From positions 806,001 to 870,000 of the forward strand of contig NZ_FOZE01000001.1 in assembly GCF_900113225.1 (NCBI RefSeq): 64,000 nucleotides of DNA. The letters run 5' to 3'. Made by a program: the position numbers and the translations under genes. The notes below the pieces were generated by a model. The model did not search any database. It worked only from the letters and a program-made list of their open reading frames with translations, and had not been told where the DNA came from. Of the stretch, positions 1,511 to 16,340 are shown piece after piece (position 1 is the stretch's first letter; each line of letters begins with the position of its first letter). The DNA is from Mitsuaria sp. PDC51. Its GTDB lineage: Bacteria; Pseudomonadota; Gammaproteobacteria; Burkholderiales; Burkholderiaceae_C.

Positions 1511-3475
1511 ATGAGGAAGTCGTTCCCGAAGGCCGCCCCGCGGCACGCGCTGACGCTGCTGGGCGTGGCCTTGGCGGCCGCGATGGCGATGCCCGCCCAG
1601 GCCGCGACCGAGAAGGCCGCGGCCCGTTCCGAGGCCAAGGCCAGCCAGCCGCGCCCGGCCAAGCGCTACACGATCGAGCAGTTCATGGCGACGACCTCGA
1701 TCAGCGGGGCGTCCTTCTCCCAGGACGAGCGCCGCATCCTGTTCAGCAGCAATGCCAGCGGCATCTTCAATGTCTACAGCATCAGCGTCGACGGCGGCGA
1801 GCCGGTGGCGCTGACCGCCTCCAAGGCCGACAGCCATTACGCGGTCAGCTACTTCCGCACCGATGACCGCGTGCTCTTCACCCGCGACCAGGGCGGCAAC
1901 GAGAACAACCACCTGATCGTGCGCGAGCTCGACGGCAGCGAGCGCGACCTGACGCCCGGCGACAAGGTCAAGGCTGGCTTCAACGGCTGGAGCCGTGACG
2001 GCGACGCCTTCTTCGTCACGACCAACGAGCGCGACGCCCGCTACATCGACGTCTACCGCTACGACGCCAAGACCTATGCGCGCACGCTGGTCTACCAGAA
2101 CAACGAGGGCAACGCGGTGTTCGGCGTCAGCGGCGACGGTCGCTGGGTGGCGCTGGGCAAGACCAACACGACGGCCGACTCCGACGTCTACCTCTACGAC
2201 ACGCAGTCCAAGGAGACCAAACACCTCACGCCGCACCATGGCGTCGCGTCCTTCAGCGTGACCGGCTTCGACCCGGCGTCGACGACCCTGCTGATGCTGT
2301 CCAACGAGGGCGCCGAGTTCCAGCGCCTGCTGGCCTACGAGCTGGCGTCCGGCCAGACGCGCGAGCTCGAGAAGGCCGACTGGGACATCGTCTACAGCAG
2401 CTACTCCCGCGACGGGCGCTACCGCGTCACCGGCATCAACAACGATGCCAGCCTGGAGCTGCGCATCGTCCAGACCGCCGATGGCCAGCCGGTGACCCTG
2501 CCGCGGCTGCCGGGCGGCGAGCTGCGCGGCGTGGCCTTCTCGCGGACCAGCCAGCGCATGGCCTTCTACCTGAACGGCGACCGCTCGCCGAGCAACCTGT
2601 ATGTCTACGACTTCGGCAGCAAGCAGGTGAAACAGCTGTCGCGCAGCCTGTCCCGGGACATCGATCCGGAAGAGCTGGTCGAGGCGCGCATCGTGCGCTT
2701 CCGCTCCTTCGACGGCATGGTGATCCCGTCGGTCTACTACCAGCCCAAGGAAGCTTCCCCGACCCACAAGGTGCCGGCCGTGGTGCTGGTGCATGGCGGC
2801 CCTGGCGGGCAGACGACGCGCGGCTACTCGGCGATGGTCCAGTACCTGGTCAACCACGGCTACGCGGTGCTGGGCATCAACAACCGCGGCAGCTCAGGCT
2901 ACGGCAAGAGCTTCTTCACCGCCGACGACGGCAAGCACGGCCGCGAGCCGCTGTGGGACTGCATCGAGGCCAAGACCTACCTCGCCAGCACCGGCGTGAT
3001 CGATCCCGAGCGCATCGGCATCATGGGCGGCAGCTACGGCGGCTACATGACCCTGGCGGCGATGGCCTTCCGGCCCGAGGCCTTCAAGGTCGGCGTGGAC
3101 ATCTTCGGCGTGTCCAACTGGCTGCGCACGCTGGAGTCCATCCCGCCCTATTGGGAGAGCTTCCGCAAGGCGCTGTACCTGGAGATCGGCGATCCGGTGA
3201 AGGACAAGGACTTCCTGGTCGCCACCTCGCCGCTGTTCCACGCCAAGGAGATCCGCAAGCCGCTGCTGGTGATCCAGGGCAAGAACGATCCGCGGGTGAT
3301 CAAGCCGGAGAGCGACGAGATCGTCGAGGCCGTCAAGAAGAACGGCGTGCCGGTGGAGTACGTCGTCTTCGACGACGAAGGCCATGGCTTCTCCAAGAAG
3401 AAGAACCAGATCGAGGCCAACCAGAAGACGCTGGAGTTCCTCGACAAGTACTTGAAGCCCGGCTTGAAGAACTAA
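1511..3475 (+). CDS. Secreted S9 family (prolyl oligopeptidase-like) peptidase
   Basis: This 654-residue protein has a signal peptide cut near AQA-ATE (about residue 31). A beta-propeller region follows (about 60-390), then a C-terminal alpha/beta-hydrolase domain (about 400-650). The catalytic triad is visible as Ser508 in GGSYGG, Asp593 in GKNDPRV and His625 in EGHGF. S9 enzymes of this class cleave peptides after proline or release dipeptides and acylated residues; the leader indicates action in the periplasm or outside. AGGAGAGGAGAA lies just before the ATG. An intrinsic terminator follows about 75 bp after the stop, so the gene appears to be transcribed alone. Confidence 0.9.
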   Translation: MRKSFPKAAPRHALTLLGVALAAAMAMPAQAATEKAAARSEAKASQPRPAKRYTIEQFMATTSISGASFSQDERRILFSSNASGIFNVYSISVDGGEPVALTASKADSHYAVSYFRTDDRVLFTRDQGGNENNHLIVRELDGSERDLTPGDKVKAGFNGWSRDGDAFFVTTNERDARYIDVYRYDAKTYARTLVYQNNEGNAVFGVSGDGRWVALGKTNTTADSDVYLYDTQSKETKHLTPHHGVASFSVTGFDPASTTLLMLSNEGAEFQRLLAYELASGQTRELEKADWDIVYSSYSRDGRYRVTGINNDASLELRIVQTADGQPVTLPRLPGGELRGVAFSRTSQRMAFYLNGDRSPSNLYVYDFGSKQVKQLSRSLSRDIDPEELVEARIVRFRSFDGMVIPSVYYQPKEASPTHKVPAVVLVHGGPGGQTTRGYSAMVQYLVNHGYAVLGINNRGSSGYGKSFFTADDGKHGREPLWDCIEAKTYLASTGVIDPERIGIMGGSYGGYMTLAAMAFRPEAFKVGVDIFGVSNWLRTLESIPPYWESFRKALYLEIGDPVKDKDFLVATSPLFHAKEIRKPLLVIQGKNDPRVIKPESDEIVEAVKKNGVPVEYVVFDDEGHGFSKKKNQIEANQKTLEFLDKYLKPGLKN

Positions 3476-3548
3476 AACCGTGTGAAGTTGCACGGCTTAC
3501 AGGCTGTTGCCCGGGGCGGTGGCAGCTTGGGCAGCATGCACCCCCAGA

Positions 3549-3574
3549 AGCCCGGCCCCGTGCCGGGCTCTTTT
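3549..3574 (+). terminator. Rho-independent terminator after the S9 peptidase gene
   Basis: AGCCCGGC (3549-3556) pairs with GCCGGGCT (3562-3569) around a five-base loop and is followed by CTTTT. It separates the peptidase gene from the cold-shock-domain gene. Confidence 0.85.
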
Positions 3575-3591
3575 GTCCGAAGAGAGAGAAG

Positions 3592-3644
3592 CGCCCGATG
3601 GAGGGCGTCCAGCGGACCACAAGTCCGCGACGCGGCGTCGGGCG
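3592..3644 (+). promoter_or_regulatory. Structured 5' leader of the cold-shock-domain gene
   Basis: A nested hairpin can be drawn. CGCCCGA (3592-3598) pairs with TCGGGCG (3638-3644), GCGTC (3605-3609) with GACGC (3629-3633), and GCGGAC (3612-3617) with GTCCGC (3623-3628) around a CACAA loop. It ends 24 nt before the ATG and leaves the ribosome site (GGGGGAA) free. Temperature-dependent folding, as in other cold-shock leaders, is only an inference. Confidence 0.5.
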
Positions 3645-3668
3645 ATCCACAAGACGGGGGAACAAGTC

Positions 3669-4070
3669 ATGCGATTCGAAGGAACCTTGGACAGCTGGTA
3701 CGCCGAGCGCGGCCACGGCGTGGTGCGGCCCGAGCAGGGCGGCGAGACGCTGTTCGTGCATGTGTCGGCCTTCCCGATGGACGGCCAGCCGCCGCAGGAG
3801 GGCGAGCGCATCAGCTTCGAGATTGTGTCCAGGAGTGACGGCAGCAAACAGGCGGTGCGGCTGCAGCGCCTGCAGGCCCACAGGCTGCCCTCGCAACTGC
3901 GACCCCGCATGGCCTCCCGCCCGCCGCGGCCGATCGCGCGCCGCCGCACGTCGCCACTGACCTGGATGGTGCTGGTGCTGCTGGCGCTGGGCGTCGGCGC
4001 CACCGTGTGGACGCCGGCCAGCCATGCGCTGGGCGGCGCGAAGGCCCAGGGCGAACCGTCGCGGCGCTGA
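3669..4070 (+). CDS. Cold-shock-domain protein with C-terminal membrane segment
   Basis: This 133-residue protein begins with a cold-shock-like OB fold (residues 1-65). It carries the RNP-type pattern GTLDSWYAERGHGVVRP and, further on, ETLFVHVSAF. A basic linker (about 70-95) and a single hydrophobic helix (about 98-115, WMVLVLLALGVGATVW) follow. Related proteins usually fuse the domain to a multi-helix DUF1294 region; here only one helix is left. ATG 3669 was chosen because GGGGGAA lies about 6 nt upstream and the fold begins at once. Membrane-tethered RNA binding is a possible role but is not shown. Confidence 0.8.
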   Translation: MRFEGTLDSWYAERGHGVVRPEQGGETLFVHVSAFPMDGQPPQEGERISFEIVSRSDGSKQAVRLQRLQAHRLPSQLRPRMASRPPRPIARRRTSPLTWMVLVLLALGVGATVWTPASHALGGAKAQGEPSRR

Positions 4071-4143
4071 ACCAGTTGACTCCTTGGGGCCGGCCCTTGC
4101 GGCCCCGTCGCCCTCGCGGAGGCCTGTTGCTCCGCTTTTTGCA

Positions 4144-4167
4144 GGCTGCCCTCGGGCAGCCTTTTTT
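4144..4167 (+). terminator. Rho-independent terminator between convergent genes
   Basis: GGCTGCC (4144-4150), a CTC loop, GGGCAGCC (4154-4161) and six T residues. It lies between the cold-shock-domain gene (plus) and the end of the TonB receptor gene (minus). Confidence 0.92.
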
Positions 4168-4173
4168 GCGTCC

Positions 4174-6579
4174 TCAGACCTTCAGTTCCAGGCGCACGGT
4201 CCAGACGGTGAAGCTGCGGCCGGTGCTTTCGCTCGTGACCAGCCGGCCCGGCGTGACCGCGATGCTGCCGTTGCCGTAGCTGAGCGGCACCAGGTTGCTC
4301 GCGGCCAGTCGCAGCGCCACCGCGGACGAGAAGGTCCACAGGGCCGAGACGTCGATGACGCGCTTCTTGTCGATCTCGTTGAGCACCTGGTCGCTCTGCT
4401 GCAGCAGCGTGGTCGGCGTGTAGTTGAGCGAGGCGCCCAGCGTCAGCGGCAGCGAGCGCAGCCGGTAGTCGGCGCCCAGGTTGGCGGTGTAGCGGGGCTG
4501 CTGGTCCAGCTTGTTGTCGGGACCGCGGATGCCGTCCACCGAGGAGTCGAACAGCGACAGGTTGCTGCGCAGGTTGATCGGCAGCGCGTCGGCGAAGTAT
4601 TCGTCGAGGCGGAACTTGGCCTCGAGCTCGACGCCGTGGGTGGTGGCGTTGCCGATGTTGCGCGGCCGGATGACCCAGCGCGGCTCGGTGGCGTAGGGCA
4701 CGGTCTCGAGCTGGGCCTGGGCGCGGATCAGGTCGGTGATGCGGCGATAGAAGAAGTTGACGCTGAGCAGCCCGCCCTTCGAAAGGTATTTCTCGTAACC
4801 GATCTCGACGCCCGTCGCCATCTCGGGCTTGAGGTCGGGGTTGCCGAAGCGGTCGGGATAGTTGATCAGGTTGCTGCCGCAGAGCGTGGCCGGCGGCTGG
4901 CAGGTGAACTGGCTGTTGATGCTGAGCCGGCCGATGACGTCGTTGAGGTTGGGCGCCTTGTAGCTGCGGGTCAGGCTGGCGCGGATCTGCTCGCGGCTCT
5001 TCTCGTCGATCTTGTAGACGCCGTGCAGCAGCGGGGTGAGCACGCTGGAGGTGTTCTTCACCGGGCCCTGGTTGTTGCTGCTCTCGGTCTGGATGCCTTC
5101 CCAGCGCAGGCCGGCGTAGAAGCCCCACTGCTTGCCGACGCTCCATTCGTCCTGCGCATAGGCGGCGAGCCGGCGCGTCGATGCGGAGACGTTCTCGCCG
5201 AAGTCGGCGAGGAAGGCGCAGTTGTCGCGCCGCATGGTGCTGCCGTAGACCTCGGTGCAGCCGCGCGTCTGGTCGCGCGTGGTGCCTTCGCCCTCCAGGC
5301 CGGCGACCAGGCTGTGCTCGTTGTCCATCTGGTGGTTGAGCTTGAGGTTGACGCTCCACTGCGTGTCGCGGCTTTTCGTGGTGTCGTCCTGCGTGCGGAA
5401 GAAGAGGCCCGGCGTGGCGTCGAGGTCCTCCTCGCGGTGGGCATCGCCGTCCATCGTCATGCGCCCGGCGCCCAGCCGCGTCTCCAGGCGGGTGCGCTCG
5501 TCCAGGCGCTTGTTCCACTGCAGGTTCAGCCGGGCCATGGTGGCGCGGTTGCTGCTGTCGCTGGTGTAGCTGTCGTACTTGATGCGCTCGAACGCGTTCT
5601 CGTCCGGCACCGCCGACTGGGTCTGGCGGGCGCTGCTGGCGCCGCGGCCGCGGTTGACCATCACGAAGGGCTGGAGCGCGAGCGTGTCGCCGCCCGCCAG
5701 GCGCAGCTGCAGGCGGCCGGTCAGGTTGAGCGACTTGCGCTCGTCGGCGCTCTGCCCGCGGGTCTGCAGCAGGGTCTGGCTCTGGAGCGCGCCGGTGCCG
5801 GTGTCGAAGCGGCTGGTCAGCGACTGCGACGCGATGTCGTCGAGCCGCTTGTGCTGCATCGCGTTGACGGTGAGGTTGTAGGCGGTGCCCTGGTCGTCGA
5901 GCTTGTCGTTGCGGGTCCAGCTCAGGTGGGGCGTGACGTGGTCGCGCTCGAAGGTGGAGGCCAGGCGCAGTTCGTTGAGGCGGCGCTGCAGGGCCTCGCG
6001 CAGGACGACGTTGATGGTGCCGGCGATGGCGCGCGCGCCGAACTCGGCGGTGGGCGCGCGCATGACCTCGATGCGTTCGATCTGTTCGGGCGGGAGCTCG
6101 TCGAGCGAGAAGCCCGGCGGCATGCGTTCGCCGTTGACCAGGATCTGGGTGTAGCCGCCGCCCATGCCGCGCATGCGGACCTCGCCGCCGCGGCCGGGTC
6201 GTCCGCCGGTGGTGACGCCGGGCAGGCGCTTGAGCACCTCGCCGATGGTGGCGTCGCCGTAGCGTTCGATCTCCTCGCGGCCGATGACGATCTTGGAGGC
6301 GGTGGCGGCGCGGCGCTGGTCGTCGTCGCGCGAGGTGCCCTGGATCTCGACGCGGTCGAGCTGGGCGGGGTTGTCGGGGGCGTCGCGCCGGGCGGGTGAC
6401 GGCGCGGGGCGGGGGGCGGGCGGTGTCGCGGCCGGCGGGGGGGAGGTCGTCGTGGCGGGCGCGGTCGCCGGCGGGGCCGGGGGCGCGGGAGGCGCGGATT
6501 GGGACCAGGCGGGGGCGCTCAGGCCCAGCATCAAGGCAACGGAGAGTGGACGCGGGGCGGGGCGGCGGGAGCTTGTCAT
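4174..6579 (-). CDS. TonB-dependent outer membrane receptor
   Basis: This 801-residue protein has a signal peptide (to about AWS-QSA), a long Pro/Ala/Thr linker, a plug domain (about 55-190; EIERYGDATIGEVLKRLPGV, then IRVMRAPTAEFG-like signature and AGTINVVL) and a 22-strand-type barrel ending in the VRLELKV strand. Such receptors import scarce ligands across the outer membrane using TonB energy. The ligand is not evident, and no neighbouring transport gene or recognisable riboswitch helps. The proline-rich N-terminal linker is longer than usual. It ends 7 bp from a shared terminator and is divergent from a small membrane protein gene. Confidence 0.85.
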   Translation of the reverse strand: MTSSRRPAPRPLSVALMLGLSAPAWSQSAPPAPPAPPATAPATTTSPPPAATPPAPRPAPSPARRDAPDNPAQLDRVEIQGTSRDDDQRRAATASKIVIGREEIERYGDATIGEVLKRLPGVTTGGRPGRGGEVRMRGMGGGYTQILVNGERMPPGFSLDELPPEQIERIEVMRAPTAEFGARAIAGTINVVLREALQRRLNELRLASTFERDHVTPHLSWTRNDKLDDQGTAYNLTVNAMQHKRLDDIASQSLTSRFDTGTGALQSQTLLQTRGQSADERKSLNLTGRLQLRLAGGDTLALQPFVMVNRGRGASSARQTQSAVPDENAFERIKYDSYTSDSSNRATMARLNLQWNKRLDERTRLETRLGAGRMTMDGDAHREEDLDATPGLFFRTQDDTTKSRDTQWSVNLKLNHQMDNEHSLVAGLEGEGTTRDQTRGCTEVYGSTMRRDNCAFLADFGENVSASTRRLAAYAQDEWSVGKQWGFYAGLRWEGIQTESSNNQGPVKNTSSVLTPLLHGVYKIDEKSREQIRASLTRSYKAPNLNDVIGRLSINSQFTCQPPATLCGSNLINYPDRFGNPDLKPEMATGVEIGYEKYLSKGGLLSVNFFYRRITDLIRAQAQLETVPYATEPRWVIRPRNIGNATTHGVELEAKFRLDEYFADALPINLRSNLSLFDSSVDGIRGPDNKLDQQPRYTANLGADYRLRSLPLTLGASLNYTPTTLLQQSDQVLNEIDKKRVIDVSALWTFSSAVALRLAASNLVPLSYGNGSIAVTPGRLVTSESTGRSFTVWTVRLELKV

Positions 6580-7026
6580 CGGGCAGGCCAGTGCGAGGCA
6601 AGCGCGGCCGATCTGGCGATGGCTGGGACGGAAGCGCGGGGAATTTGTATGGGGGTCGTCAGCCGGGCCGAGGCGGCCGGGTCACGGAACGGGCCGAAGC
6701 ATCGCACGGTGTACGTTTCGTGAAGCGGCGCCGCTGCGGACTTTCAAAGTTCTTTACCCAAGGTGATGGGCGGGCGCGACGGCGTTGAGGGAAAACCCGC
6801 AGCGGAGGCGGGTCCACGGCGTCGGCGATTCGACAGCCAGGTGGTTGAAGTCCCTGAATGGGGGGCAGACGATCGGCTTGCTACTGGAGTGGGCCATTGG
6901 CCCGCTCGCGAGCAAAGGAGAGCGTGGGGGCACGCCCGATCAGGACGGCGGGCGACGATCGATCACGCTGAGATCGTGCGGCTCGACGCCGATGCGGCCC
7001 TCTTCCTTTCTTCCCATGGAGCAGCA
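6580..7026. other. Intergenic region between divergent genes, no gene supported
   Basis: This 447-bp spacer must hold the promoters of the TonB receptor (minus) and the small membrane protein (plus). Open frames here lack ribosome sites and coding character. I see no clear -35/-10 pair, riboswitch or operator. Confidence 0.5.
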
Positions 7027-7296
7027 ATGCTTGGACTTCTGAATCTCGACAAGGTGAAACGGCTCGGCGCCAAGCGATTTCTCGTCTTGTTCGCGTTGGC
7101 CGTGTCGGCGATGTTCTTTGGCCTGTTCGTGGCGATCGGCGTGCTGATCGAGGGCGAATACGTGGCGCGAAGAGGCTTCCTGGTGGTCAGCCTCGCGTAT
7201 GGCTTCCTCATGACGGCCATCTTCGGATGGGACCTCTGGCGATCTCCGCCGCCCGATCACGGTGATGCCGGCGAGCAGCGTGACGGTCAGACCTGA
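7027..7296 (+). CDS. Small two-helix membrane protein of unknown function
   Basis: This is an 89-residue protein with a basic N-terminus (LDKVKRLGAKR), two hydrophobic helices (about 18-40 and 50-66) and a polar acidic tail. ATG 7027 was chosen because GGAGC lies 6 nt upstream and it gives a standard membrane topology; the frame is open further upstream but looks non-coding. The composition (aromatic FFGLF, AYGFLM) is that of an inner-membrane protein. No family was recognised. It stands alone before a strong terminator. Confidence 0.65.
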   Translation: MLGLLNLDKVKRLGAKRFLVLFALAVSAMFFGLFVAIGVLIEGEYVARRGFLVVSLAYGFLMTAIFGWDLWRSPPPDHGDAGEQRDGQT

Positions 7297-7337
7297 CCAG
7301 CGACAGTCTGCGACGAGCTCCGCGGCGCCCCAATGAA

Positions 7338-7366
7338 AGAAGCCACCCGTCGGGGTGGCTTCTTTC
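7338..7366. terminator. Rho-independent terminator, possibly bidirectional
   Basis: AGAAGCCACCC (7338-7348) pairs perfectly with GGGTGGCTTCT (7353-7363) around GTCG. It is followed by T-rich sequence on the plus strand and by TTCTTTC on the minus strand. It terminates the small membrane gene and may also stop transcription from the lacI-type gene. Confidence 0.88.
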
Positions 7367-7550
7367 TGAAGAGGGTATCCGGACGCTGGTGACGGGTTCC
7401 AGCTTTCTGCCCTATGTCGCAGTCGGTTGTTTGTCTCGGATGCATGGCATTGTGCCGAGGCTGTGTGACGGCCAGTTGACGAAAAGCGAGGCGACTCCGG
7501 GTCAGTTCATCGGCGGGCGTCCGGTGCGTGCCGTGACCGATCGCAGCGGC

Positions 7551-8600
7551 TCAGCAGGCGGGTGCCGTGTCGCTGTGCAGGCGCCGGGTGGACTCCCGCA
7601 CGATCAAGCGCGGCACCGGGGGCTGCACCGAGGAACTGCCATGCCGGAGCAGATCCAGCATCGCGGCGGCGGCGCGCCGGCCAAGCTCGGCGATCTGGAC
7701 ATCGATCGTCGTTCGCGGTGGGCTGGCATGGGCGGTGTTCAGCAGGTCGTCGTAGCCGACGAGCGAGACGTCCTCGGGCACGCGGATCCCGCGGCTGTGC
7801 AGCACGCGCGCGGCGCCGGCGGCCATCTGGTCGTTCGCCGCGAACACCGCGGTGAAGGCGGTACCGCGCTCCAGCATGCGCGTCATCGCGGCAGCGCCGC
7901 CGGCCTCGAGGTAGTCGCCGTTCGCGATCAAGGCTTCGTCCAGCTCCAGACCGGCCTCGGCGAGCGCCGCCCGGTAGCCCGCCTCGCGCTCCTTCGCATC
8001 CGCATGCGTCGCATCCCCGCCGATGAACGCGATCCGCCGATGGCCGCGCTCGATCAGGTGGGCGGTCGCCGCCTGCGCGCCCGCGGCGTCATCGGTCTTG
8101 AGCGCGTGAAGGCCCGGCGCCTGCAGCGACCGTCCCGTGACCACGACCGGCAACTCGCGCGCGAGCGCCGCCAGGAAGGCGTTGTCCAGGCCGCCCGTCA
8201 ACACGATGATCCCGTCGACGCGCCGGGAGCGCAGCGAGGCGATGCAGCGTTGTTCCTCTTCCGCCTGCCAGTGGCCGCTCGACACCACCAGTGCGTAGCC
8301 CGCAGGCGTCAGCACTTCCTCGATGCCGCGCAGCAGCAGCGCGTAGAACGGGCTTTCGAAATACTGGACGAGCAAGCCCACGTTGAAGGTGCGCCCATCC
8401 GCGAGCGCCCGTGCGATGGTGTTGGGGACGAATCCCAGGGCAGCGATGGCCTGTCGCACGCGCTCGGTCTTGTCGGCGCTGACCTGCGCGCTGCCGCTCA
8501 GCACGCGCGACACGGTGCTCGGCGACACACCGCTGGCCGCGGCCACCATGCCCAGCGTCACCTCGCTGGACGTCGATAGGAGAGGCTTCTTTCTCTTCAT
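7551..8600 (-). CDS. LacI/GalR family transcriptional regulator
   Basis: This 349-residue repressor has an N-terminal helix-turn-helix (about 14-36, VTLGMVAAASGVSPSTVSRVLSG) and hinge region, followed by a periplasmic-binding-protein-like effector domain (about 65-335; NVGLLVQYFESPFYALLLRG). Proteins of this family bind a sugar or nucleoside and release operators. A 12-bp palindrome lies directly before its own ATG, implying autoregulation. No sugar operon is adjacent, so the effector and other targets are unknown. No Shine-Dalgarno sequence is seen because the operator occupies that position. Confidence 0.92.
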   Translation of the reverse strand: MKRKKPLLSTSSEVTLGMVAAASGVSPSTVSRVLSGSAQVSADKTERVRQAIAALGFVPNTIARALADGRTFNVGLLVQYFESPFYALLLRGIEEVLTPAGYALVVSSGHWQAEEEQRCIASLRSRRVDGIIVLTGGLDNAFLAALARELPVVVTGRSLQAPGLHALKTDDAAGAQAATAHLIERGHRRIAFIGGDATHADAKEREAGYRAALAEAGLELDEALIANGDYLEAGGAAAMTRMLERGTAFTAVFAANDQMAAGAARVLHSRGIRVPEDVSLVGYDDLLNTAHASPPRTTIDVQIAELGRRAAAAMLDLLRHGSSSVQPPVPRLIVRESTRRLHSDTAPAC

Positions 8601-8773: not shown

Positions 8774-9238
8774 ATGCAGGATCGCCTGAAAGTCCTGATC
8801 GCCGATGACCAGCCCGATTCGCTGGAGCTGCTGCGCGAGCTGCTGACGGTCTACCACTTCGAGCTGAAGGTCGCGCCCACCGGGCTGGAGGCGATCCGCA
8901 TCGGGCTGAAGTGGGAGCCGGACCTCCTGATCACGGACATCGCGATGCCGGACGCCGACGGCCGGCACGTGGCGAGCCGTCTGAAGCTGAGCCTGCCGGC
9001 GCTGGTCGCGATCGCGGTCAGCGGCACGCCGCTGAACACGGATTTCGAGTCGGCGGAGGACCTCGTGTTCGACGATTACTTCGTCAAGCCGCTCAACTGG
9101 GCCCGGCTGCACGCGGTGTTGACGCGGCATGGGGCGAAGCTGGTCGAGCCGGGCGGTGCGCAGCTGTTCGGCGCGGACGATGGCGCCGACGTGTCGTTGG
9201 AGGCGCCGACGGACCCGAGCCGGCGGCCGGAGCGATGA
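8774..9238 (+). CDS. Receiver-only response regulator
   Basis: This 154-residue CheY-like protein has the acidic pair Asp11-Asp12, phospho-acceptor Asp55 in LLITDIAMPD, a Ser/Thr in AVSGT and the conserved Lys in FVKPL. No output domain follows; the last 35 residues are a Pro/Asp-rich tail. It probably relays phosphate to a partner protein. ATG 8774 places the first strand at residue 5; a longer form from 8723 is possible, and neither has a strong ribosome site. The stop overlaps the start of the DUF1275 gene (ATGA), so the two are translationally coupled. No histidine kinase is nearby. Confidence 0.85.
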   Translation: MQDRLKVLIADDQPDSLELLRELLTVYHFELKVAPTGLEAIRIGLKWEPDLLITDIAMPDADGRHVASRLKLSLPALVAIAVSGTPLNTDFESAEDLVFDDYFVKPLNWARLHAVLTRHGAKLVEPGGAQLFGADDGADVSLEAPTDPSRRPER

Positions 9239-9996
9239 GGCGGCTGCTGCACCTGACCAGCCGTCACCGCGCGCCGTCGACCAACCAGGCGCTGGGGCTG
9301 CTGCTCGCGTTCAATGCGGGCGCGGTGAACGCGGGCGGCTTCCTGATCCTGCAGCGCTACACCTCGCACATGACCGGATTCGCCTCGCAGCTGGCCGATG
9401 GCGCGGTGATGGGGCAGGGCACGCTGGTGCTGAACGCGCTGGGCGCGATCCTCGCTTTCGTGTGCGGCGCGGCGGTCTGCGCGGTGCTGGTGAACTGGGC
9501 ACGGCGGCATGGCCTGCGCAGCGTTTACGCGCTGCCGCTGATGCTGGAGGCAGCGCTGCTGTTCCCGTTCGGCCTGATGGGCGCGATCACGCTGACCTGG
9601 CACACGCCCTTCGCGGTGCCGCTGACGGTGCTGCTGCTGGCCTTCATCATGGGCCTGCAGAACGCGGTCGGATCGAAGACCTCGGGAGGCAGCGTCCGCA
9701 CCACCCACATGACGGGGAACATCACCGACCTGGGGATGGAGCTCGGCAAGATGCTCTATTGGAATCGCCAGCCCAAGGCGCTGCGGCCCGGCGTGCGGCA
9801 TGACCGCGAGCGGGCGCTGCGCGCGGGCGGCCTGCTGGCCGCCTTCGTCCTGGGCGGCGTGGCGGGGGCGCTCGGGTTCAAGCACCTGGGCTTCATCTGC
9901 GTGGTGCCGCTGGCGACAGTGCTGTTCGTGCTGGCGCTGCCGCCGGTGACGCGGGACTGGGGACGGTGGAGAGGGGTGCTGGCGCGGCAGCGGTGA
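9235..9996 (+). CDS. DUF1275 (YoaK-like) membrane protein
   Basis: This 253-residue membrane protein has about six hydrophobic helices. The family pattern is seen near the N-terminus (LLLAFNAGAVNAGGFLIL) and in the middle (TSGGSVRTTHMTGNITDLG). The family is widespread but its function is not established; transport has been suggested. The ATG at 9235 overlaps the stop of the response-regulator gene. No separate promoter is likely. Confidence 0.85.
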   Translation: MRRLLHLTSRHRAPSTNQALGLLLAFNAGAVNAGGFLILQRYTSHMTGFASQLADGAVMGQGTLVLNALGAILAFVCGAAVCAVLVNWARRHGLRSVYALPLMLEAALLFPFGLMGAITLTWHTPFAVPLTVLLLAFIMGLQNAVGSKTSGGSVRTTHMTGNITDLGMELGKMLYWNRQPKALRPGVRHDRERALRAGGLLAAFVLGGVAGALGFKHLGFICVVPLATVLFVLALPPVTRDWGRWRGVLARQR

Positions 9997-10011
9997 GGGG
10001 CTGGACAGGCG

Positions 10012-10644
10012 TCAGCGCGTGGATCGCAGGCGCAAGTCTCTTTCGCGTCGAGCCGCCTCACGCTCCTCCGCCTCCCGCTGCCGCGCGATCCGGTCGCCTT
10101 CCGCGGGATCGGCCGCGCTGTGGACGGCCTCGGCACGGCGGCGGGCGTCAGGGCCGCCGGTCAGGCTGCTCTGGGCGTCGACCGCCTGCTTGCTGACGGT
10201 CCAGTCCGCGGCGCTGTACTTGCCCTGGCCCTTCTGGCATTGGCGCGCCCGGCGGATCTCGTCCTGGACGAAGCGTTTCGCCTCGGGGCTCAGCGAGATC
10301 GAACTCGCCTTGGTCTCCATGCCGGCGATGTCGCGGTCGGAGGGGCAGACGTTGGCGGGAGCGATCGGTGCGGCCGGTGCCGCCGACGGCGTCGCGGTCG
10401 CGGCTTGCTGCTCCGCGGCGGCAGCCTTGGCGCGCTCGATTGCGGCGCGGTCCGCCGAGGTGTCGATCACATTGCTCTGCAGCGACCGCGACGTCATCGC
10501 TTCGCCCTTGGCCGGGCAGGGCTGGTCCGAGTACTGGACCTTGCCGTCGATGGTGCATTTCCAGACCTGGGCCTGGGCGGTGGGCGCCGCCATCGCGACG
10601 GCGGCGAGCAGGCCGGCGAAGGCGGTCCGGTGGATCTGTGGCAT
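10012..10644 (-). CDS. DUF4124 domain exported protein
   Basis: This 210-residue protein has a signal peptide cut after AQA (about residue 23). A DUF4124-type motif follows directly (VWKCTIDGKVQYSDQPC, about 25-42), in which two cysteines probably form a disulfide. An Ala-rich linker and a charged helical C-terminus rich in Arg/Glu complete it (EREAARRERDLR pattern). ATG 10644 is supported by GGGAGAC at a good distance; the open frame extends far upstream but is non-coding there. The domain is common in proteobacterial cell-envelope proteins and its role is unknown. Confidence 0.8.
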   Translation of the reverse strand: MPQIHRTAFAGLLAAVAMAAPTAQAQVWKCTIDGKVQYSDQPCPAKGEAMTSRSLQSNVIDTSADRAAIERAKAAAAEQQAATATPSAAPAAPIAPANVCPSDRDIAGMETKASSISLSPEAKRFVQDEIRRARQCQKGQGKYSAADWTVSKQAVDAQSSLTGGPDARRRAEAVHSAADPAEGDRIARQREAEEREAARRERDLRLRSTR

Positions 10645-10875
10645 GTGCTTGTCTCCCTGAAGCGAATCGAACGCGCCAACTCTCGCATGTGTTGACAGGC
10701 CGGAGGCACGGGGCGTCGGCAGGCAGCTCGGCATCGGAGGCGGCGATCGCCGCGGGTCCGGGACCGGCGCGAGCCCGTCAAGTCCCCTCCCGCCGCTTCC
10801 CCGTCCTGGCCGTGGCCGACCGCGGATGAAGCGGGCAGCATGCGGTCCTCCGAAGCCGCGGCGTGGACCGACAGC

Positions 10876-12519
10876 ATGGCCTTGATCTCCCTTCAGCGGA
10901 CGCTCGCGGCGTCCGCCTGCGCATGGATGGCGGGTGGCGCGATCGCCGCGCCAGATTCCGCCGCGCTCGCCACCGATCCGGCGGCGATGACGCAACTGGT
11001 CGAGGCGGTCACCCTCGACGTCATCTCCGAGCTCTCCGTGTCCGCGTGCGAGGACGTGGGCGCGCCCTCGGCCCCCCAGATGCGTGACGCGTGGGTGGCC
11101 TGGCGGACGCGTTACCAGCTCCCGCCGCTGCGGGTGATCGTGACGCGCGTGATGACGCGCAAGAGCAGCGATCCTCCATGGGACAAGCTGGTCGAGCCGG
11201 TCCGCAAGCGGGTTCTCACGAACGCCACGCCCGATCAGGCCTGCGTCGCGATGGCGCGCGAATGGGACGGCCCCGGCATGGACATCGCTGCGAAGTATCC
11301 GCAGGCCATGCCGGTGGCGCGGGCGCTCGTACAGGCGAAGCTCGTGGCGCCGCCGACGCCGCTGCCCGTGGCTGTCGAGCCGGCGCGCGGCCAGCTCCTG
11401 CTGCCGAGCCAGGTGGTCGCCTTGACGGCGCAGCGGGGGAGTTGGCTGGCGATCTCCGATGAGGCGGCACTTCGCAAGATGGGGCAGGTCTATGTGAAGG
11501 GCCGGGTGGCGCGCGATATCCGCTATCCCGAGCGCTTCCACCTCGTGCAGGAGCGGGGCGGCCGGCAGGCCGAGCAGTTGATCCATCTGAAGTTCAACGC
11601 CGAGCCGTGGGTGGGCCGCGAGATCGTGCTGCGCGGGGTGGTGACCTCGCTGAGCCGGCTGTCGATGGACCTGGCCGATGCCGCGCTGGTGAATGATGCG
11701 TCGGGGCTGACGGTGTCGCCGCTGCAGCAGGCGCCACTGGCGCGGAAGGAGGTGCTGCTGCAGCGCGTGATGAGCGCGCCGGGTCAAGGTTTGAGCGAGA
11801 AGGATCTGGTCGCGGTCGTGCTTCATGGGGAGGCCAACTACAACTACGGCACCCGTTGGGAGGAGGACGTCAGGTTCCTGCTGAAGGACGGGACGGTGTA
11901 CCGCCGCACGGAGATGCCGCCGGATCAGTTGAACGTCGCCGCGTCGAGGCAGTTGGAGCCGCGGCGCTGGGGGCGGTGGAGGAGCACCGGCAAGGGCTAC
12001 GAGATGCAGGAACAGGACGACGACGGGCGGCCGCTCGGCGAGTGGAAGTTGGAGAAGCATGTCGCGATGAAGCCGTGGCCGAAGGATGCGAGGCTGGAAG
12101 GGAGCTTCAGCCGAAGCAGCTTCAACGGGAGCATGGTCACGGGCGGGACCTCAGCGACGCGCGGGATCCGGTTCACGAAGGACGGTCGCTTCGAGCGCAG
12201 CTACAGCGCGCTGTCGAGCACGGGCAGCCTGCAAGCGATCACCGGGACGGTGATCGCGGGGTCGTCGCAGGGGGACGGATCGGGGAGCAGCAGCACCGGC
12301 GGCGGGACGGTGGGGACGGGGCTAGGGACGGTCGGTGCGACCAGCGGGACACGGACGAAGGACGATGGGGCGAGCCGGAGAGGTCGGTATCAGTTGAGCG
12401 GCTACGCGATCACGCTGACCTATGACGACGGACATGAGGAGCGGCTACTCAGTTTTCCGGTCGATGGGAATGGCCGGAGTGTGTATGTCGGGAGTGGGAG
12501 TTATGACCTCTCGAAGTGA
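10876..12519 (+). CDS. Large exported protein of unknown function
   Basis: From ATG 10876 the protein has 547 residues. It has a signal peptide (MALISLQRTLAASACAWM, cut near AIAA), a helical N-terminal domain with two cysteines (about 45-130), a middle beta-rich region (about 190-260), a domain with SFSRSSFNGSMVTGG (about 400-450), a Gly/Ser/Thr linker (about 460-495) and a C-terminal lipocalin-like strand set (YQLSGYAITLTYDDG). No family was recognised with confidence. The start was placed to retain the signal peptide; an in-frame ATG at 10840 adds 12 residues that would mask it. It is divergent from the DUF4124 gene. Confidence 0.7.
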   Translation: MALISLQRTLAASACAWMAGGAIAAPDSAALATDPAAMTQLVEAVTLDVISELSVSACEDVGAPSAPQMRDAWVAWRTRYQLPPLRVIVTRVMTRKSSDPPWDKLVEPVRKRVLTNATPDQACVAMAREWDGPGMDIAAKYPQAMPVARALVQAKLVAPPTPLPVAVEPARGQLLLPSQVVALTAQRGSWLAISDEAALRKMGQVYVKGRVARDIRYPERFHLVQERGGRQAEQLIHLKFNAEPWVGREIVLRGVVTSLSRLSMDLADAALVNDASGLTVSPLQQAPLARKEVLLQRVMSAPGQGLSEKDLVAVVLHGEANYNYGTRWEEDVRFLLKDGTVYRRTEMPPDQLNVAASRQLEPRRWGRWRSTGKGYEMQEQDDDGRPLGEWKLEKHVAMKPWPKDARLEGSFSRSSFNGSMVTGGTSATRGIRFTKDGRFERSYSALSSTGSLQAITGTVIAGSSQGDGSGSSSTGGGTVGTGLGTVGATSGTRTKDDGASRRGRYQLSGYAITLTYDDGHEERLLSFPVDGNGRSVYVGSGSYDLSK

Positions 12520-12523
12520 TTTG

Positions 12524-12532
12524 CCTCGACCT
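12524..12532. repeat. 9-bp copy of the tRNA-Asn 3' end (possible att remnant)
   Basis: CCTCGACCT occurs here in the same orientation as at 13871-13879, inside the 3' end of the nearer tRNA-Asn gene. The two copies bracket the low-G+C gene exactly. Nine bases alone could be chance. Confidence 0.35.
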
Positions 12533-13712
12533 AGTCGGCTGTACCCGTATTGTTTCGGAACTCGTCCTGTAGCTTCACGAACCATTCGCCGTAATGGCGA
12601 TATTTGTCCTTGGCGACGGGGTAATTGTGGTTCAGGTCGAAAAGATCCTCGAACCAATAATTGTTTGATCCAGTTTTCTGGAAAAGGATAAAGGGATGGA
12701 TGTCTCCGCTGCGTAGTTCGTTCATCAGCGCGGGCTTGATGATTCGGCCGTACGGATGCCCAAGCCGGTCGTTCGCCGTTTCGAGCAGGTCGTAGATCAA
12801 CGGGATGTGGTGATGGTCACCATGCCAGTTCCAGAAATCCATGTTGAATCCGAAGGGGTAGACCTTCCATCGGAACTCTGAGAACTGACTTATCAACACC
12901 AGATCCATCGAATCGGGTTCGATGGCCATATACGAGGCGAGAGGCGATTCTGCGGCAATTGCCTTAATCTTCTCGACTTGATAGTCGTAGATGGATTCGG
13001 TGGGGTACTTCTTGCCAGCGCCGTGCTTCAACCATGCCGTCGATATTCCGGTCAGCGTGGATAAGGAGTCGATGTCGTGCTCTGCGATCTCGACTTCGCC
13101 AGATTCGATCGCTTTCCAAGCTCTTTCGCTTGGGAAATGCAAATGTTCAATGATTCTAGAGGCGGGTATGGATGCATCTTCTCGGCCTTCCTTGATTCGA
13201 TGTCCACAGTCGAAATATCGCACTGAGCGGGAGGCTGGAGAATCTGAAGAAGTCGACTCGCCGAAATAGTTGAGGAGAAGGGACGAATTCCCTGCAGTGT
13301 GTTTGGTGATGCGTTCGAGCGAAAGAGGATCGAGCTCCCAACCCAGCGCCGCGCAGGCGGACCGATAGTCCTCTACTTCATCCTTGAGGGGTGTGTTGAC
13401 ACAGATCAGTACGCGCCGAATCTTGCTCGCAAATTTTGTCGACGGCAGCTTCCCGATGTCCTCGATGATCTTCTTTGGAATATCCGTCTGCTGGGTCGTG
13501 CAAATGATGGCGGTATATGTGTCATCCGATGCGTGGTACACGTGAGCGTCACATTTCCCGGTCGTCGTCTTGCCAATGAAGTTGAAGGACGGTTCCAAAC
13601 GATCAAAGCCGGGATAGATGCTCGGCAGCAGGGTGCTCATGAATCGTTCGAACTCGTCGGAGCCCATTGCGCCGATTTTGATTCGGATACGGTCGATCAA
13701 TGCGTTGTTCAT
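12531..13712 (-). CDS. Nuclease-like domain fused to XRE helix-turn-helix; possible defence gene
   Basis: This 393-residue protein is A+T-rich (near 50% G+C by eye) among neighbours near 70%. Residues 1-130 look like a degenerate PD-(D/E)XK nuclease fold: KCDAHVY with Asp55, then a strand ending IICTTQQ (69-75) and KK at 80-81. Residues 170-232 match an XRE helix-turn-helix (RIKEGREDA, then STLTGISTAWLKHG). The C-terminal 150 residues are aromatic-rich with HGDHHH at 297-302 and match nothing I recognise. The gene stands alone beside two tRNA-Asn genes, a common landing site for foreign DNA. Nuclease activity and a defence role are inferences; the usual catalytic Lys spacing is not clear. Confidence 0.6.
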   Translation of the reverse strand: MNNALIDRIRIKIGAMGSDEFERFMSTLLPSIYPGFDRLEPSFNFIGKTTTGKCDAHVYHASDDTYTAIICTTQQTDIPKKIIEDIGKLPSTKFASKIRRVLICVNTPLKDEVEDYRSACAALGWELDPLSLERITKHTAGNSSLLLNYFGESTSSDSPASRSVRYFDCGHRIKEGREDASIPASRIIEHLHFPSERAWKAIESGEVEIAEHDIDSLSTLTGISTAWLKHGAGKKYPTESIYDYQVEKIKAIAAESPLASYMAIEPDSMDLVLISQFSEFRWKVYPFGFNMDFWNWHGDHHHIPLIYDLLETANDRLGHPYGRIIKPALMNELRSGDIHPFILFQKTGSNNYWFEDLFDLNHNYPVAKDKYRHYGEWFVKLQDEFRNNTGTAD

Positions 13713-13827
13713 GGCAAGAGACAGATTGGTCGGGGCTGGTGTTGTAGAGCATTAATGCATGCGCAGGACATCCCCCCAGGGTAGGGGAGTGCGACGGTCG
13801 GTGTCGGCGGGCGAAGCGAACCAAAAG

Positions 13828-13860
13828 AAAAAGCCCCGATGCATCGCTGCAACGGGGCTT
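13828..13860 (-). terminator. Rho-independent terminator of the downstream tRNA-Asn
   Basis: On the minus strand AAGCCCCG and CGGGGCTT pair, with an inner GCA/TGC stem, and are followed by TTTCTTTT. It lies 5 nt after the tRNA CCA end. Confidence 0.88.
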
Positions 13861-13865
13861 CAGTT

Positions 13866-13941
13866 TGGCTCCTCGACCTGGGCTCGAACCAGGGACCTAC
13901 GGATTAACAGTCCGGCGCTCTACCGACTGAGCTATCGAGGA
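13866..13941 (-). tRNA. tRNA-Asn (GTT), copy 1
   Basis: The gene is 76 nt with CCA encoded (13866-13868) and discriminator G. The acceptor stem is TCCTCGA/TCGAGGA, the anticodon loop is CTGTTAATC with anticodon GTT, and the T-loop has GGTTCGAGCC. Apart from one acceptor pair it appears identical to the second copy at 14045. It reads codons AAC/AAU. Confidence 0.97.
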
Positions 13942-14005
13942 AAAGTCTGCTCAGATCCTATCGATCTGAATTCTTGGGCCAGGGTCTTCGGTCGGACTCT
14001 GGCTG

Positions 14006-14034
14006 AAAAAGAACGAAGGTCCGAAGACCTTCGT
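14006..14034 (-). terminator. Rho-independent terminator of the upstream tRNA-Asn
   Basis: On the minus strand ACGAAGGTC pairs with GACCTTCGT around a TTCG tetraloop and is followed by TCTTTTT. It lies 10 nt after the CCA of the second tRNA-Asn and before the first, so the two tRNAs are probably separate transcription units. Confidence 0.9.
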
Positions 14035-14044
14035 CATCTGATCT

Positions 14045-14120
14045 TGGCTCCCCGACCTGGGCTCGAACCAGGGACCTACGGATTAACAGTCCGGCGCTCT
14101 ACCGACTGAGCTATCGGGGA
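14045..14120 (-). tRNA. tRNA-Asn (GTT), copy 2
   Basis: The gene is 76 nt with encoded CCA. The acceptor stem is TCCCCGA/TCGGGGA, one base pair different from copy 1; the D, anticodon (GTT) and T arms look identical. It is followed by its own terminator. Confidence 0.97.
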
Positions 14121-14156
14121 TCAGAGCCTAAGAGTATACACAGAAAAATCAGAAGC

Positions 14157-16340
14157 TCACAAGACCCACTCCACCGACGCACGCCAGGTGCGATTGGCGA
14201 GCGGGTACAGGTAGACGTGGCCGTACTGGTACGGCGATTCGCGCCACGCCCGGCGGTCAGTCACGTTGTCCACGCCGACACGCCAGATCAGCTGTTGCCG
14301 ACCGATGTTCTGCTCGTAGCGCGCGCCCAGGTCCAGCCGCGTCCAGCTCGGGATGGCCAGCGAGTTGTCCGGCAGCACCATGCGCTTGCCCTCGTACACG
14401 ACGCCCGCCTGCAGCTCCAGGCCCGGCAGCCCGACGCCCTGGCGCGCCTGCAGCTTCAGCACCGTCTCCGGCACGTTGGTCGGCTTCAGGCCGTTGAGCG
14501 TCGCGTCCTCGCTGCGCTCGCGGCGCGCGCGCAGCTTCATCGCGCTGGCCATCAGACCACCGTTCGTCCACTTCAGATCCGCTTGCGCTTCCACGCCGCG
14601 ATGGTTCTGCTCGCCGTCGATGCGGGTCTCGAGCATGTCCAGGCCGTTCACCGTGACCGCGACGTCACGCGTCGCGGGCTTGCTGACGTCGAAGTAGTTG
14701 ATCGACCAGTCCACCGTCCGGCTGCCCGACTTCAGACCGATCTCCCACTGCCTGCTGCGCAGCGCCGGCAGCACCGCCGTGCGGTTCGCATAGACCGGCA
14801 GGTTGGGCACGACTGCCGATTCAATGCCCTGGCCCCAACTCGCGTAGGCCAGCAGCTGCGCGTTGATCGCGTAGCTCACACCGAGCCACGGCGTCGTGAA
14901 CGACTGCGCGTACGGATTCGGCGTGCCGACCTGGCCAGCCTCCGGGCCGACCGCGACGCTGTCGCGCTTGAGCCGCGTGTGACGCACGCCGAGCCAGCCT
15001 TGCCAGCGCTCGCTGAACTGCATCGCGTCGCGCAGGTAGACCTCGGTGCTGCGCTCGGTGCGGTTGGTGTTGGTGCCGGTGAGCGTCGGGTCGGCCGTCG
15101 TCGGCAGCGTGCCCCAGATGTTGCCGGTGCCCGCCCAGTTGTAGGCCTGGCCCTGCAGCCGGCTCTTGTAGCGCGAGAGCAGCACGCCGGTCGTCAACTC
15201 GTGCGTGATGCCGGCCGTGTTGAGCCGGCCCTGCGCCGAGAGGTCGAGCGCGTCGCTGTTGCGGTGCTCGTTCTCGCTGCGGAAGTCGTACTGGTCGAAG
15301 GTGCCGTCGGGGCAGTAGGTGCTCGGGTAATAAGTGCCGTCGCCGGCGGTGCAGCCGAATGGGTAGGCGAGGCGGTCATCGGTGACCAGCCGCTGGATCG
15401 CGGCATGCGCCTGCAGCTTCCAGTCGGCATTCAATTGGTGCTGCACGCGCAGGGAAGCGGTGCGGCCCTCGAAGACGACCGGCAGGCTCCACGATTGATT
15501 GTTCAGGTTGGTGCGCGGATCGATGGACTTCGCGTCGGGCAGGCGGTCGCCGAGCAGGCTGAAGCCGGGCTGGCTGGGCTGGGACTGGCGGGAGACCTCG
15601 ACCTCGGCCTCGACCAGCGTGTCGCGCGTCACGCGCCAGTCGCCGGCGACGGCCATCATCCAGCGATGGCCGTCGGCGTCGCGCAATTCGGGCCGGAGCT
15701 TGGCGGCCTGCAGATTGACGCGCAGGCCGAAGGCCTTGTCGTTGCCGTGGCCGTCGCTGAAGCGGCGGCTCCAGTCCATCGCCGATTCGAGGGTGCCGCG
15801 CTCGCTGACGCCGAGCGTCACGCTGGTGAGCTCGGTCGTCGGCCGCTTCACGACGAGGTTCACGAGGCCGCCGGGGGCGCTGGTTCCCGCCTGGATGCCG
15901 CTCGTGCCCTTGAGCACCTCCAGGCTGCTCTTGTTCGCGAGGGGCAGGGCGGTCTCGGCGTTGATCGGCAGGCCGTCGCGACGGAAGTTGAAGCGGTTGT
16001 CGAGGTCGTAGCCGCGGATCTTCAGGTAGGAGACATACCCCGCGGAGTTGTACGAGTCGCCCACGCTGGCGTCCAGCAGCGTCAGGCCGGCCAGGCTGGT
16101 GAGGCCGCGGTCGGTGAGCTGTTCGGCGCTGACGATGCTGGCCTGCATCGGCAGCTTGGCGACCGGCGTGTCGCCGAAGCCGCCGACGGTGGCGGGCGCC
16201 TCGGCCGAGCCCTTGATGACGACGCTGGGCAGCGCCGGCGCGGCCGTCTGCGCGGCGGCGTGGAAGGACAGGCCGCCGGCCGCGAGCGCGAAGGCGAGGC
16301 GGCGGAGCGGGAATGGAGTCAAGCGAGACGAAGTTGCCAT
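14157..16340 (-). CDS. TonB-dependent receptor under a TPP riboswitch (putative thiamin-compound receptor)
   Basis: From ATG 16340 this is a 727-residue outer-membrane receptor. It has a signal peptide (cut after AAAQ), a plug domain (about 40-170; SVVIKGSAEAP, KIRGYDLDNRFNFRRDGLP, EVLKGTSGIQAG) and a barrel ending RASVEWVL. By sequence it looks like a FhuA/siderophore-type receptor. A TPP riboswitch lies about 95 nt upstream on the same strand, which points to thiamin or a thiamin precursor as ligand. ATG 16340 keeps the signal peptide; a TTG at 16379 is less likely. No clear Shine-Dalgarno is seen. Two cysteines in the barrel (FGCTAG..., TYCPDG) may form a loop disulfide. Confidence 0.85.
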   Translation of the reverse strand: MATSSRLTPFPLRRLAFALAAGGLSFHAAAQTAAPALPSVVIKGSAEAPATVGGFGDTPVAKLPMQASIVSAEQLTDRGLTSLAGLTLLDASVGDSYNSAGYVSYLKIRGYDLDNRFNFRRDGLPINAETALPLANKSSLEVLKGTSGIQAGTSAPGGLVNLVVKRPTTELTSVTLGVSERGTLESAMDWSRRFSDGHGNDKAFGLRVNLQAAKLRPELRDADGHRWMMAVAGDWRVTRDTLVEAEVEVSRQSQPSQPGFSLLGDRLPDAKSIDPRTNLNNQSWSLPVVFEGRTASLRVQHQLNADWKLQAHAAIQRLVTDDRLAYPFGCTAGDGTYYPSTYCPDGTFDQYDFRSENEHRNSDALDLSAQGRLNTAGITHELTTGVLLSRYKSRLQGQAYNWAGTGNIWGTLPTTADPTLTGTNTNRTERSTEVYLRDAMQFSERWQGWLGVRHTRLKRDSVAVGPEAGQVGTPNPYAQSFTTPWLGVSYAINAQLLAYASWGQGIESAVVPNLPVYANRTAVLPALRSRQWEIGLKSGSRTVDWSINYFDVSKPATRDVAVTVNGLDMLETRIDGEQNHRGVEAQADLKWTNGGLMASAMKLRARRERSEDATLNGLKPTNVPETVLKLQARQGVGLPGLELQAGVVYEGKRMVLPDNSLAIPSWTRLDLGARYEQNIGRQQLIWRVGVDNVTDRRAWRESPYQYGHVYLYPLANRTWRASVEWVL

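Follow-up and report, generated by a model that had tools for sequence, protein, structure and literature searches.

Profile comparison shows that an XRE-type helix-turn-helix (HTH) followed by a C-terminal domain forms a module that is reusable behind unrelated N-terminal domains on plasmids, a phage contig and chromosomal contigs. In the window, i.e. the whole stretch of 64,000 nucleotides analysed here, this module is carried behind a nuclease-like head by a protein encoded beside two tRNA-Asn genes (Table 1). As a tentative best explanation, to which we give slightly less than an even chance, the gene is mobile cargo of a variable, partly defence-carrying tRNA site, and its product a DNA-binding sensor or regulator with a non-catalytic nuclease-fold head. 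By kind, the protein is filed as a multi-domain XRE regulator of mobile islands.

Table 1 Features of the window and of the corresponding tRNA-Asn site in genus relatives. Rows that name a genome are given in the coordinates of the locus in brackets.
Feature	Position	Strand	Remarks
Window gene, 393 aa, ATG start	12531..13712	minus	From the ORF list; single copy in its own genome
N-terminal domain, residues 1-153, degenerate PD-(D/E)XK-like	13254..13712	minus	Low-confidence model
Asp55 to CTTQQ (71-75), expected place of D...ExK	13488..13550	minus	ExK reads Cys-Thr-Thr
XRE-type HTH, residues 159-232	13017..13238	minus	PHROG match, models, hhalign
C-terminal domain, residues 241-393	12534..12992	minus	Common to RHH-, TM- and AlbA_2-headed proteins
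HGDHHH, residues 297-302	12807..12824	minus	Not conserved; close to the GAGG loop of relatives in the alignment
Convergent neighbour, 559 aa	10840..12519	+	Stop about 11 bases from the stop of the window gene
tRNA-Asn (GTT), nearer copy	13866..13941	minus	
tRNA-Asn (GTT), second copy	14045..14120	minus	
Flank past tRNA 3' end, right edge of variable stretch	13824..13865	.	Similarity with most genus relatives fades beyond
G1174 (L099), PDC-M31A/B candidate pair, AAA_21 ATPase and partner	8815-10738		G+C 0.45-0.50; 0.3 and 1.6 kb from tRNA; left flank seen
G1176 (L108), PDC-S15 candidate, FRG domain	2643-4648		1.0 kb from tRNA; adjoins NsnA-like/PD-T4-2-like protein; low G+C; left flank seen
G1180 (L110), DRT4/DRT6-like reverse transcriptase	1714-3474		82 bp from tRNA; left flank not seen within 6.5 kb
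G1177 (L103), Hachiman HamA and HamB	3807-8462		4.2 and 5.1 kb from tRNA; left flank not seen within 6.5 kb

The coordinates, Asp55, the IICTTQQ string (residues 69-75), the XRE region and the HGDHHH string of the preliminary description are all present, and the strand is added here. Its claim of a base composition foreign to the neighbours was likewise borne out. In 500-bp windows, G+C is 0.504-0.536 over the gene, 0.66-0.75 where they end before 12.5 kb or start at or beyond 14.25 kb, and 0.56-0.64 in the intermediate ones, which include the tRNA genes. By codon position (1/2/3), the gene shows a G+C of 0.51/0.40/0.66, as compared to 0.65-0.71/0.50-0.53/0.88-0.93 in three neighbours. Both tRNA-Asn genes lie upstream of the gene, which stands alone in that it has no close co-directional neighbour; no RM genes occur among the ORFs at 8-20 kb of the window. 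No operator could be recognised upstream, where the best palindromes had their equal in 45 of 200 shuffles. A second full-length copy was detected in genome G253, which belongs to a different family of the order (2 of the 300 genomes searched at this level match, the window's own included). As this homologue is intact and 58% identical, with differences mostly at third codon positions, the window gene is not a chance ORF.

The fold of the N-terminal domain was addressed with an AlphaFold2 model of the window protein together with six relatives (mean pLDDT 61, pTM 0.50), in which the N-domain rests on effectively one sequence. The modelled order of this domain (H3-15, H18-32, E44-49, E52-61, E65-72, H78-87, E98-105, H110-122; block pLDDT 33-63) matches the helix-helix-strand-strand-strand-helix-strand-helix succession expected of a PD-(D/E)XK fold. 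The model puts D55 on strand two and the ExK position where strand three ends, at low confidence. As modelled, the domain would resemble the PD-(D/E)XK superfamily in its helix-helix-beta-beta-beta-helix-beta arrangement and in the Asp on the second strand of a hairpin; it differs from this superfamily in lacking both ExK and a detectable sequence family. D55 and C71-T72-T73, the latter at the ExK position, are invariant in the window protein and the G253 homologue, so that the catalytic D...(D/E)xK motif is incomplete in both. Because Cys-Thr-Thr stands for ExK in both known copies, catalysis by the N-domain is unlikely, and the loss of ExK, if it was one, predates the split of the two. A resemblance of the CTTQQ string to "EYTTQ" heads of other proteins carries no weight in this reading. 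A Foldseek search with the model gave no match at E<=0.001; the best 50 matches contain one restriction enzyme, Kpn2I (rank 42, E 0.31, probability 0.75, matched part of the protein not stated). No curated nuclease family for the N-domain was found in Pfam, NCBIfam, PADLOC or PDB sequences, nor a named family for the N- or C-domain in Pfam, PADLOC, PHROGs and NCBIfam with the window protein or in Pfam with six relatives. With about 66-67% identity to G253, the N-domain is the most conserved third of the protein (HTH 48%, C-domain 54%), and 68% of its third codon positions differ despite 66% amino-acid identity. Taken together, the model suggests a PD-(D/E)XK-like fold that lost its catalytic ExK, and the domain is read as a putative constrained, non-catalytic nuclease fold.

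The preliminary description had proposed a nuclease-like N-terminus fused to an XRE HTH and a further C-terminus, with structure prediction as a check. The fusion stands, and the prediction returned a PD-(D/E)XK-like order of strands and helices at pLDDT 33-63, which no more than suggests the fold, with Kpn2I as the one restriction enzyme among the 50 matches listed. An active nuclease is not supported, ExK being absent from both copies and a family match lacking. A profile of the N-domain built on both copies recovered only itself in 369 class genomes; at E<=1 it gave a match in 35 of 299 phylum genomes, self included. Among the candidate places inspected for relatives of the domain, L046 and L047 have frames broken by stops and no recognisable kin, and L048, L049, L059, L060 and L063 were judged dissimilar by eye.

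An XRE HTH in the middle of the protein, as claimed before, is supported by several lines of evidence. Residues 167-235 give a weak PHROG repressor match (E 0.0035), helices are modelled at 184-230 with a block pLDDT of 71-85 (43-69 for the helix at 159-172), and Foldseek with the window protein model finds HTHs such as SinR at probability 0.99. A second model, of the HTH and C-domain module led by a Motiliproteus protein (mean pLDDT 82.5, pTM 0.80), shows an XRE-type HTH followed by alpha-beta-beta-beta-alpha-beta-alpha. Its Foldseek matches are the HTHs of SinR, DdrO, TP901-1 CI and C.BclI (probability 0.99-1.00, E about 0.1-0.3); no match reaches E<=0.001, and the C-domain has no reliable one. 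A profile of 18 module proteins matches the 434 repressor (E 0.014), and the modelled helices at 159-230, the Foldseek matches of the relative and this profile together identify an HTH of the 434-repressor type, in line with the hhalign result below. The window protein has no Pfam match, and its relatives reach HTH_31/HTH_3 below cut-off only. The HTH fold is shared with XRE/HTH_3 repressors and with RM controllers (SinR, C.BclI, C.AhdI; the latter two appear in the Foldseek matches), whereas the window protein carries it mid-protein with two further domains and has no RM genes among the ORFs at 8-20 kb of the window.

The C-domain of the window protein is modelled as helix-strand-strand-strand-helix-strand-helix. 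The HGDHHH string named earlier for this part is indeed present. A conserved metal site there was rejected, since the string reads VGDEYH in the sole close homologue (G253). The fact that the GAGG-type loop of the relatives stands at HGDH/VGDE in the nuclease-headed pair also argues against a metal site. An RNase H-like topology (beta-beta-beta-alpha-beta-alpha), for which glucokinase, CoaX and HIV RT appeared among the matches, was discarded as no match was significant; expansin, AbiV and glucokinase matches were rejected as weak and partial.

The connection to a wider family emerged from weak tblastn matches of residues 215-378 to Klebsiella plasmids and from a Vibrio plasmid match to the G253 homologue (E 0.5). 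As identity across the module family is about 20%, homology was tested by profile. Aligning the two nuclease-headed proteins with 17 others by hhalign gave a probability of 98.6 and an E of 1.4e-15, the latter valid for a single comparison, over 229 columns, and places the module at residues 155-386. RHH-type heads occur on plasmids of Klebsiella, Escherichia, Pseudomonas, Acinetobacter, Burkholderia and others, and on one phage/viral contig (L081). The FitA-like RHH PF22513 passes its cut-off in two of the three RHH-headed proteins examined and narrowly misses it in the third; the Acinetobacter and Moraxella proteins are annotated as Arc family, and the remaining ones were assigned by alignment. 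Membrane-helix heads were read from the sequences of Vibrio, Motiliproteus and Pseudoalteromonas proteins. A Schlafen AlbA_2 head is found in protein P0004 of G776 (PF04326, 60.9 bits, cut-off 25.3) and, by alignment only, in a Gallionella MAG; the G776 contig C77 and the Aquincola MAG record, being of equal length, appear to be one and the same. In a tree of 23 module sequences, each head class with at least two members forms one side of a branch (RHH class 90/87; the other three classes starred), with the nuclease-headed pair set apart by a long branch.

The W(W/F)xD motif, whose W and D are nearly invariant in 18 aligned module proteins, reads W353-F-E-D356 in the window protein and W-F-D-D in G253, while the G-x-G-G loop is replaced by HGDH/VGDE in this pair. 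The FitA-like RHH + HTH plasmid proteins have the HTH and C-terminal domain in common with the window protein and differ in the head, a DNA-binding RHH versus a nuclease-like domain; most of them also show a GAGG-type loop and a YW-type tail, as opposed to HGDH and YP.AK..G..F in the window protein. The AlbA_2 + HTH + C-domain proteins of the Aquincola and Gallionella MAGs share the HTH and the C-domain, including the [DE]DL.DL.H motif, and are distinguished by their AlbA_2 head. Of 72,556 plasmid records, 1,213 match one Klebsiella protein of this form at E<=1e-3, and in 469 the match spans no less than 80% of that protein; the matches listed are mostly annotated "hypothetical protein". Some of the RHH + HTH plasmid genes are located near conjugation, partition or repressor genes. 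In the stretches examined, annotated defence neighbours of plasmid relatives are mostly absent, with toxin-antitoxin pairs and pifC with a P-loop NTPase as exceptions.

The nuclease-headed form is rare. A search of 250 family genomes returned the window protein itself and the C-domain match in G776, and the 72,556 plasmid records gave distant C-domain matches only. Neither the window protein (P0001) nor P0003 has a match in 50,697 phage records. Degenerate-pattern scans, a method limited to close kin, gave no confirmed relative of the whole protein in viral or genome contigs; two of the six loci from one such scan (L079, L080) were dismissed by eye, as no listed ORF reads as a relative. The HTH + C-domain profile matches 34 of 339 class genomes, self included, and the other 33 were set aside as generic HTHs, the matches listed covering profile positions 1-127 and nearly all ending below 97. 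No description of a nuclease-like head fused to an XRE HTH and this C-domain was found among the titles and abstract openings retrieved from the literature with general terms.

The genomic site, which provides the chief clue, was analysed by searching window DNA 10840-15500 against 16 genus genomes, own included, with 18 candidate places scored per genome. The side with the tRNA and the TonB receptor is present in 16 of 16. Stretches of up to about 11 kb beyond the tRNA were taken from 15 relatives, of which 14 are informative; L112, whose contig stops 310 bp from the tRNA, was left out. The window protein is absent by tblastn beside the tRNA in 14 of 14. Beyond about 42 bp from the 3' end of the tRNA, similarity fades, and a comparison of each relative with the window shows different ORFs in the stretch that follows. 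A homologue of the left flank was detected within 6.5 kb in seven of the 14 (L098, L099, L100, L106, L107, L108, L109), and in these seven only is the variable stretch bounded on both sides. These comparisons show that the stretch beside tRNA-Asn is variable, in agreement with the earlier suspicion of a foreign-looking gene at a variable tRNA site. In G1171 the left-flank neighbour lies 124 bp from the tRNA, i.e. there is no cargo. As the 559-aa gene is also missing from this spot, and lies elsewhere in several relatives, the window cargo may comprise two genes, the 559-aa neighbour and the window gene. Integration into the tRNA itself was rejected, considering the roughly 42 bp of similarity beyond its 3' end and the lack of a tRNA-end repeat near 12.5 kb.

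PADLOC was run on twenty chosen proteins, for the most part those nearest the tRNA, which come from all informative relatives but G1171 (13 of 14); in L103, three ORFs of lower G+C 2.5-5.1 kb away were picked over four nearer ones. Nine of the 20 match, and seven are counted as diagnostic (two each in L099, L103 and L108, one in L110), a generic methyltransferase match in L107 and a weak NYN match in L104 being left out of this count. Diagnostic matches are found 0.1-5.1 kb from the tRNA in four of the 14 relatives; two of these four show the left flank as well. For G1177 and G1180 the identity of the site is established for the tRNA side only, as no left-flank homologue lies within 6.5 kb; in G1177, a DUF6119 gene and four other ORFs separate HamA/HamB from the tRNA. 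Among the proteins scanned, no diagnostic defence gene was found in ten of the 14 relatives (none scanned for G1171), and the same tRNA side carries other scanned cargo that does not resemble defence genes, namely MCRA in G1172, PEP-CTERM in G1179 and a methyltransferase in G1175. In a small, non-random control, none of seven window genes matches PADLOC, and one of three genes of L101 does, a generic kinase about 0.9 kb from the tRNA. The window protein itself has no PADLOC match up to E 10. The HamB frame of G1177 ends near profile position 685 of 841 and may be shortened.

The G253 homologue (L006) is preceded by genes that match TnsA (27.9 bits against a cut-off of 26.5), rve (31.2 bits, below its cut-off of 32.6) together with Mu-transpos_C (24.4, cut-off 21.7), TniB and TniQ. 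After it come genes with DUF4365 (immediate neighbour), HSDR_N_2 (at 2.3 kb) and SIR2_2 (at 8 kb) domains. From this gene order we infer that the homologue is cargo of a Tn7-like element. According to PMC8649781, known innate defence systems make up 2% of the cargo genes of Tn7-like transposons and are carried by 26% of these elements, and further, unknown defence systems are expected among the remaining cargo. The caveat raised in the preliminary description, that homologues might be conserved core genes outside islands, was checked and does not apply, as the single close homologue lies in an island. The suspected association with defence genes gains some support from both settings, i.e. Hachiman, DRT and PADLOC candidates near the tRNA, and a homologue beside Tn7-like and defence-type genes. 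A 471-aa gene of G253 (L006, 15618-17033) with no Pfam match lies between the HSDR_N and SIR2_2 genes.

Other explanations have to be weighed against these data. An active nuclease with a shifted site, in which metal is bound by D55 together with further conserved residues and cutting is directed by the HTH, strikes us as quite unlikely. Shifted PD-(D/E)XK sites exist, the N-domain is the most conserved third, and D55, D63, D64, E20, E22, E40 and K53 are invariant between both copies. Still, as there are two sequences only, this invariance says little, and CTT in place of ExK in both, together with the lack of any family or PDB sequence match, speaks against metal-dependent cutting. The missing catalytic motif would suit a decaying, functionless remnant of a former restriction-like gene, as would the fact that the gene has no DNA match at the 18 candidate places scored in each of the 15 other genus genomes. 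This explanation is very improbable given the intact frame, a homologue that differs mostly at third positions while 58% of the amino acids are identical, and a CTT common to both copies.

The protein may also play no part in defence and act as an accessory transcription regulator for genes of mobile elements, the tRNA site being a mere landing place. That most relatives are RHH + HTH plasmid genes, some of them near conjugation, partition and repressor genes, fits this idea, as do the MCRA, PEP-CTERM and methyltransferase genes on the same tRNA side and the ten of 14 relatives without a diagnostic defence gene at the tRNA. However, the window gene has no close co-directional neighbour to regulate, its homologue resides among DUF4365, HSDR_N and SIR2_2 genes, and one AlbA_2 form is found beside type I RM-like genes, while a 1726-aa protein whose AAA match stays below threshold adjoins another. 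We rate a plain regulator as rather unlikely and retain cargo encoding a sensor or regulator with a non-catalytic nuclease-fold head as the preferred reading. Weighing against the latter are the want of a recognisable operator, the low-confidence model of the N-domain, the surroundings of the plasmid relatives, mostly free of annotated defence genes in the stretches examined, the lack of a PADLOC match to the protein, the ten of 14 relatives without a diagnostic gene among the proteins scanned, and the two sites (G1177, G1180) shown to correspond on the tRNA side only.

For such a sensor, the HTH, judged from its fold, would anchor the protein to incoming DNA or to an operator. As suggested by its conservation behind different heads, the C-terminal domain would sense a ligand or partner signalling an invading element. 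The N-domain would serve as a replaceable output or aiming part that binds DNA or a partner instead of cutting. We infer a putative defence role for the window protein. In a bolder version, which we hold to be somewhat unlikely, the module would sense foreign DNA or the state of mobile elements in general, with pluggable outputs (RHH DNA-binder, membrane anchor, Schlafen AlbA_2, dead PD-(D/E)XK). The window protein would then represent the nuclease-fold type within a modular family of single-protein conflict systems that is as yet undescribed. The WYL repressors BrxR/CapW/CapR and RptR are similar insofar as they are HTH-type regulators found with defence systems (PMC9122601, PMC12255303). The window protein differs from BrxR, CapW and CapR by standing alone and by its nuclease-like head, and no WYL domain is seen in it, as it has no Pfam match of any kind.

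The shared module ties a large set of plasmid "hypothetical protein" genes to island genes with AlbA_2- or nuclease-like heads, through a C-terminal domain without a match to any curated family. Should the module respond to a signal of invasion, head swaps would offer a direct route to what is sensed. Moreover, the tRNA-Asn site is a ready place for finding more defence genes in the genus.

Several individual loci of the module family deserve mention. In G776 (L009, 10988-12199), the AlbA_2-HTH-C-domain gene lies on the opposite strand directly after hsdR/hsdM/hsdS-like genes, as read from the ORFs, and may be an RM regulator; in L078 (9364-15851), such a gene adjoins the 1726-aa protein, whose sole match is to AAA_30, below threshold. 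On a Citrobacter plasmid, an RHH-headed relative is located just upstream of trbA in the IncI transfer region (L014, 3968-4951), and on the Klebsiella plasmid pKPN5 a distant RHH-headed relative lies beside pifC and the P-loop NTPase gene (L012, 159-4945); pif genes exclude phage. Long inverted repeats with arms of 18+18 and 11+11 bp, equalled in none of 200 shuffles, are found upstream of the RHH-headed gene of L003 and the TM-headed gene of L075, respectively, and are possible operators or terminators.
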